Source of the DNA: a virus
DNA: 26,176 bases
Direction: 5' to 3' (one strand)
IMG/VR virus record: IMGVR_UViG_3300027784_000478
Coordinates: 1-26,176 of that record
The translations under genes and the position numbers were made by a program. Shown piece after piece: positions 1 to 539 of this stretch; the first letter of the stretch is position 1, and each line of letters begins with the position of its first letter. Under the pieces are notes generated by a model, which saw nothing but the letters and a program-made list of their open reading frames with translations, was not told the origin of the DNA and ran no database searches.

Positions 1-270
1 TATCTTAAATCATGCAAATGACGAAAGTAACTTTGCAATCGCAGCCTGATCTCAGGTGATGCCGAGTGATGACAACTTAGGAACAGAAAGTCGTAAACAG
101 TGTGGTCACGTTTTCGGTACACACCATTAAGTTGAACCGACCAAGTTTTGTCAGTTTTGAGGGAACGAAACTAAAACTGAATACTTTATTACTTTAGAGA
201 AAGTAAAAAAACTTGTATAATTGTCTTTATTGATTGTAACAACACTCGGGTTCGAACCCCGACATCTCCA
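1..270 (+). ncRNA. ssrA: tmRNA (transfer-messenger RNA), 5' end outside window
   Basis: Rescues stalled ribosomes and tags the unfinished protein for proteolysis. Seen: a resume frame GCA at 14 reads ANDESNFAIAA and stops at TGA 47-49, close to the E. coli tag ANDENYALAA. The stop lies in a small hairpin (45-48 with 53-56). A later helix 151-158/173-180 and hairpin 189-195/200-206 fit the pseudoknot domain. The 3' end is tRNA-like: T stem tcggg 246-250 / cccga 258-262 with loop TTCGAAC, acceptor strand catctcc 263-269, discriminator A270. CCA is not encoded. The 5' acceptor strand, expected to be ggagatg, must lie just upstream of the window. Tag and T arm together make this assignment strong; the pseudoknot folding is by eye only. 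Confidence 0.92.
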
Positions 271-293
271 CTCATATTAATTATATACTATCC

Positions 294-539
294 ATGAAAT
301 TAAAAAACCTTTTACCAGAAAATCAAAATAACTTACCAACTAAAGATGGTAAATTACCGTCAAGACAGAATTTTAAAGTTGGAGATCGTGTTATAATAGT
401 TCGTGGGAAAGACAAAGGTGAGCGAGCTAAAGTGGTCAAAGTAGAGGGTCAAAATAGCATTGGATTATATTTATATAGTATTAAAGATGTTGCATCTTGG
501 TATAGTTCTAAAAATTTAAGACCAGATCCAACTAAATAA
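294..539 (+). CDS. Small KOW-motif-like protein
   Basis: This 81-residue protein has a basic N-terminal tail (residues 1-25) followed by FKVGDRVIIVRGKDKGERAK (about 28-47). That segment matches the KOW pattern of ribosomal protein L24 and NusG: a hydrophobic strand, a G-K-D-K-G turn and a second strand. KOW domains bind RNA or ribosomal partners, so a role near the ribosome or RNA polymerase is possible but inferred. It sits between the tmRNA and the first tRNA, which fits a translation-related setting. It is far too short for NusG. ATG 294 is the only sensible start and there is no Shine-Dalgarno sequence, only an AT-rich leader. Confidence 0.7.
   Translation: MKLKNLLPENQNNLPTKDGKLPSRQNFKVGDRVIIVRGKDKGERAKVVKVEGQNSIGLYLYSIKDVASWYSSKNLRPDPTK

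Follow-up and report, generated by a model that had tools for sequence, protein, structure and literature searches.

Judged by sequence comparison, the first 270 nucleotides (plus strand) of the virus record IMGVR_UViG_3300027784_000478 are the transfer-messenger RNA (tmRNA, ssrA) gene of a phage, truncated at its 5' side by the end of the contig. The window, as we call the whole stretch analyzed here, is the entire record of 26,176 bases and begins at base 1 of it. Such an RNA releases stalled ribosomes and tags their incomplete products for degradation. What is missing at the contig start is the first ~80-90 nucleotides of the gene: the 5' acceptor strand, the D-loop region, pseudoknot 1 (PK1) and most of helix 2 correspond to positions before base 1, off the record, and the 3' two thirds are kept. 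A first-pass annotation of the sequence had proposed a phage-borne tmRNA in this place. The claim is borne out by a match to the Rfam tmRNA model RF00023 (E = 1.3e-10) and by a profile of related phage tmRNAs, which even without the T-arm separates the window (25.5 bits) from the best non-tmRNA sequence (7.6 bits) in 2.04 Mb of loci.

The covariance search that the first-pass annotation had suggested returned a match flagged as cut at the 5' end, covering model positions 78-374, and its score of 30.0 bits stays below the curated RF00023 cut-off of 47 bits. Two relatives trimmed at the cut point of the window score 54.5 bits (L169) and 51.8 bits (L166), compared with 82.8 and 101.8 bits when complete; thus, the low score is partly due to truncation, and in addition the window copy is more divergent than these. 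The RF00023 match alone is not decisive, because it is no longer reported once the T-arm is left out and because the model also gives 19-21 bits to ordinary tRNAs of the window. The phage profile was constructed from eight tmRNAs of phages found via the GroEL protein encoded in the window, and its T-arm-less version had the last 45 nucleotides removed. The full profile matches the window at 34-271 (E = 5.6e-12) and the T-arm-less one at 33-216 (E = 6.7e-8). With the latter, the best of 1000 dinucleotide shuffles reached 1.7 bits, and beta- and gammaproteobacterial tmRNAs did not exceed 10.9 bits. Similarly, the local alignment of the window with the tmRNA of phage record G048 (locus L166), T-arm removed, scored better than 500 of 500 shuffles. 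It includes a motif of the pseudoknot 2 (PK2) region that the two tmRNAs have in common, TAGGAACAGAA-N6-AAACAGTG (78-102 in the window). This motif was found in six stretches of viral contigs, the tmRNAs among them being L226, from the same record as L166, and L228, a short further contig in which the motif has the same sequence as in the L166 phage. In its six frames taken together, the window contains a single [ILVMF]AA-stop with a T-loop within 350 nucleotides downstream.

The reading frame GCA AAT GAC GAA AGT AAC TTT GCA ATC GCA GCC TGA (14-49, plus strand) ends in FAIAA-UGA (32-49), a hydrophobic residue followed by Ala-Ala. The first-pass annotation had read the tag as ANDESNFAIAA; the frame is confirmed, but its start probably lies one codon earlier. 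In Escherichia coli tmRNA, A86, located four bases 5' of the resume codon, is nearly invariant, and its change to U kills activity (PMC2481249). The bases at -5 and -4 are U and A in all eight relatives, with L168 read from GGC as the resume codon (ARAGORN places the start of this tag at GTT, one codon too late; with GGC the rule holds). In the window, GCA at 14 has U at -4 and CAU at 11 has A at -4 and U at -5, so the predicted tag is HANDESNFAIAA. We consider CAU the probable resume codon, with the frame-setting sequence UAAAU (6-10) directly 5' of it and the tag frame running from 11 to the UGA that ends at 49. CAU is unusual in this role because the relatives all start with G, and a search for a CAY-resume pattern found no match in viral contigs.

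The stop codon lies near the loop of a hairpin at the end of the tag (41-62; local fold of 30-65, -8.7 kcal/mol), the equivalent of helix 5, and this position agrees with that in E. coli tmRNA. Approximately 200 nucleotides of structured RNA lie between the tag stop (47-49) and the T-arm, and this PK2-PK4 region matches the relatives in sequence. A PK3-like element (100-140), paired by eye from one sequence, comprises GUGUG (100-104)/CACAC (120-124) and then UCGGU (114-118)/ACCGA (136-140), the first stem reappearing in the local fold. In the minimum-energy fold of the fragment, the PK4 region (142-215) forms the stems CAAGUUUU/AAAACUUG and CAGUUUU/AAAACUG and the hairpin UACUUU/AAAGUA.

The tRNA-like 3' half is present at 246-270. 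It consists of a T-arm with a perfect 5-bp stem (TCGGG-TTCGAAC-CCCGA, 246-262), the acceptor 3' strand CATCTCC (263-269) with U70 at 267, and the discriminator A270 (A73), where the mature 3' end lies; CCA is not encoded, as in the tRNA genes downstream. The relatives L164, L167 and L169 have the identical strand CATCTCC, paired there with GGGGATG, and G3-U70 is among the pairs. The acceptor is complete with G3-U70, the identity pair of alanyl-tRNA synthetase, in all eight phage relatives. Since the window retains U70, its 5' acceptor strand is expected to read GGGGATG rather than the GGAGATG type that the first-pass annotation had anticipated. A search of the contig for the 5' half revealed no convincing candidate, and no terminal repeats were found at the record ends. 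A permuted two-piece tmRNA (RF04321) was considered and rejected: the tag precedes the T-arm instead of lying downstream of the acceptor piece, and the scores are only 14 and 12.7 bits.

Starting from what is directly seen, namely the gene, its tag frame, T-arm, acceptor 3' strand and relatives, we propose how charging, use of SmpB, tagging and benefit to the phage might proceed. The gene very likely encodes a working tmRNA that uses the alanyl-tRNA synthetase, SmpB and proteases of the host. Its carrier would be a large tailed phage with its own one-piece tmRNA, of which the contig holds the 3' two thirds. As U70 suggests, the RNA would be charged by the host alanyl-tRNA synthetase. SmpB was detected in none of 18 records, and the control was positive in all ten bacterial genomes. 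These phages therefore probably depend on host SmpB, and this protein would bring the tmRNA to ribosomes stalled on truncated messages. Translation would resume at CAU, appending HANDESNFAIAA, and the hydrophobic Ala-Ala end of the tag would pass the protein to host proteases of the ClpXP type. The likely benefit would be extra rescue capacity in the lytic takeover, when message cleavage leaves many non-stop ribosomes.

Several observations weigh against this proposal. The RF00023 score does not reach the cut-off and lies 22-25 bits under those of relatives cut at the same point, the fold stability of the fragment is no better than that of shuffles (z = -0.96), the T-stem is preceded by ACAC where most relatives have GGAC, and the gene could be a broken one, its 5' third being off the contig. 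Three of these points, namely the score, the missing GGAC and the 5' third beyond the contig end, make decay the main rival, that is, a tmRNA that was acquired by the phage and is still recognizable but is no longer charged or no longer tags. A U at -4, if GCA were the resume codon, would point the same way. We regard decay as unlikely: the tag frame is intact with its Ala-Ala end, the T-stem is perfect, U70 and A73 are retained, and the acceptor 3' strand is identical to that of three relatives.

Another alternative is a decoy, an RNA that binds SmpB or the ribosome and inhibits the host tmRNA. Such phage RNAs are on record (PMC4131195, PMC11915505): mycobacteriophage DS6A has a tmRNA-like RNA without a tag that is reported to act in this way when expressed in E. 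coli. A tag-less form of 109 nucleotides is present in a 484-kb phage. A decoy, however, has no need of a tag, and that of the window is intact, which leaves this explanation very improbable. It is barely credible that the locus is no tmRNA at all and that a tRNA-like 3' end stands by chance behind a short open frame. While the scores of ordinary window tRNAs with RF00023 and the loss of that match without the T-arm would fit such a coincidence, the T-arm-less profile strongly disfavours it, and the PK2 motif is in common with L166. Apart from the window, the 109-nucleotide RNA mentioned above (L199:1501-1609; LR756508.1, around record position 414804) has a complete acceptor with G3-U70, a T-arm, no evident tag frame and 58 bits with RF00023, and resembles the reported tag-less RNA of DS6A. 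LR756508.1 is a 484-kb uncultured phage that also carries a long tmRNA, at 92434-92880.

The first-pass annotation had singled out the AIAA end of the tag as unusual and had pointed out that its Leu-to-Ile change lies in the part recognized by ClpX. The idea of an odd recognition end does not hold. Tags with a FAIAA end are listed in a published table for Clostridioides difficile (ADDNFAIAA) and Xanthomonas campestris (ANDDNYGSDFAIAA) (PMC12493166). Scanning 84,980 species genomes, we found ANDE-x(0-3)-FAIAA at 13 places in beta- and gammaproteobacteria, and ARAGORN called a tmRNA at 12 of them, with the tags ANDETFAIAA or ANDERFAIAA. Thus, the FAIAA end is ordinary, not peculiar, and there is no reason to assume redirected proteolysis. 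The tag had also been likened to the proteobacterial form; its start does look so, but the RNA body resembles the tmRNAs of the related phages and not those of proteobacteria. As a separate observation, L248 (JAEEOK010000030.1, 7947-7979, minus strand) is a second ANDE..FAIAA place in the Succinivibrionaceae metagenome-assembled genome that also holds L239. ARAGORN made no call there because the locus ends at this point; either the genome has two tmRNA genes or its assembly is mixed.

Neither the exact tag DNA nor a degenerate ANDE...AIAA pattern with a T-loop was found in viral contigs. The tags of the phage relatives end in YALAA, YAVAA, VAIAA or YPVAA, and those of L163, L164, L165, L166 and L167 are 23-24 residues long. 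Four 24-residue tags (G039, G042, G043 and G048), DVELSTMTFEDAMAFVGADYAVAA and its kin and ANEISDFTFEDALSFVSNEVAIAA, have a mid-tag TFEDA-x-x-FV in common; other relatives have short tags. The L166 tag can be written as ANEISDF-TFEDALSFVSNEV-AIAA and resembles the window tag with an insert. We did not use ARAGORN starred hits in L029, L032 and L205 or the tag frame of L197 as evidence. A bolder reading is that the tmRNA resumes at CAU, unlike its G-starting relatives, and belongs to a group of large phages whose tags have been remodelled repeatedly (9 to 24 residues, with the TFEDA-x-x-FV core in the long ones), as though selection had given phage tags their own function, for instance to evade or exploit the protease adaptors of the host; we offer this only tentatively and think it rather doubtful.

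Other genes of the window encode GroEL, thymidylate synthase, peptide deformylase, 5'-nucleotidase and baseplate wedge proteins. The immediate neighbour of the tmRNA (294-539, plus strand) encodes an 81-residue KOW-domain protein (Pfam KOW, E = 6.2e-7). No relatives of it were found in viral contigs or the related phages, nor is it conserved beside the tmRNA, and it was dropped as a synteny anchor. ARAGORN and Rfam identified four tRNA genes on the plus strand, tRNA-Met(cat) at 561-632, tRNA-Gly(gcc) at 753-825, tRNA-Cys(gca) at 830-902 and a further tRNA-Met(cat) at 1131-1207; this cluster (561-1207) is a phage tRNA-gene context. Conserved synteny of a tRNA-Met 3' of the tmRNA in L167 and L169 was rejected, the tRNAs being not clearly the same gene.

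GroEL together with a homologue of the baseplate protein (48-60% identity) occurs in records G045 (287 kb), G049 (266 kb), G048 (182 kb) and G043 (94 kb), all four of which contain a tmRNA above the Rfam cut-off. None was seen in other records with a baseplate homologue, for example G002 (130 kb), but these records are incomplete pieces of genomes. Among named phages, the baseplate protein is closest to those of Microcystis phage Mel-JY01 (42%) and Flavobacterium phage immuto (39%), and no tmRNA was found in either. At the DNA level, the window matched named phages in tRNA-Gly only, with no match for the tmRNA. A Shine-Dalgarno-like sequence precedes 3 of 31 window genes; this scarcity and the GVNNYALAA tags in G045 and G049 both fit a Bacteroidota host, which is plausible. 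G045 also carries, ~1.1 kb downstream of its tmRNA, a GOLLD RNA (RF02032, 261 bits; L169:2924-3331), and the locus contains tRNA genes as well.

Phage tmRNAs are already known, and the window adds a phage group to those that carry one. With the odd ClpX-recognition end set aside, what remains most interesting is how strongly tags differ between related phages. This makes the group well suited for asking whether the phage shapes its tags or takes them over from hosts.

Previously described phage tmRNAs come from mycobacteriophages Bxz1, Cali and Wildcat, Bacillus phage G, methylophage Melnitz and huge phages (PMC4131195, PMC9004378, PMC7162821), and a tmRNA was reported in 402 of 18,146 phage genomes (PMC9004378). 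They differ from that of the window in belonging to other phage groups; moreover, the Melnitz tmRNA is two-piece, and some huge phages are reported to have SmpB. Bacterial tmRNAs with FAIAA tags have the same last five tag residues as the window, whereas the bodies of the proteobacterial ones, T-arm removed, fall short of it on the phage profile, as described above. Jumbo phages G045 (L169) and G049 (L168) resemble the window phage in GroEL, in a 60% identical baseplate homologue and, in L169, in CATCTCC, but their tmRNAs have the tag GVNNYALAA, near the Bacteroidota type, and higher Rfam scores. GroEL and a baseplate homologue of 48% identity are likewise encoded by the phage of G048 (contig 3300027754_000039, 181,588 bases). 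Its tmRNA is like that of the window in its PK2 motif, in lacking an encoded CCA and in a tag that starts ANE and ends AIAA; it differs in a GCA resume codon, in its higher score when cut alike and in a 24-residue tag, ANEISDFTFEDALSFVSNEVAIAA, which reads as if 13 residues had been inserted into the window tag.
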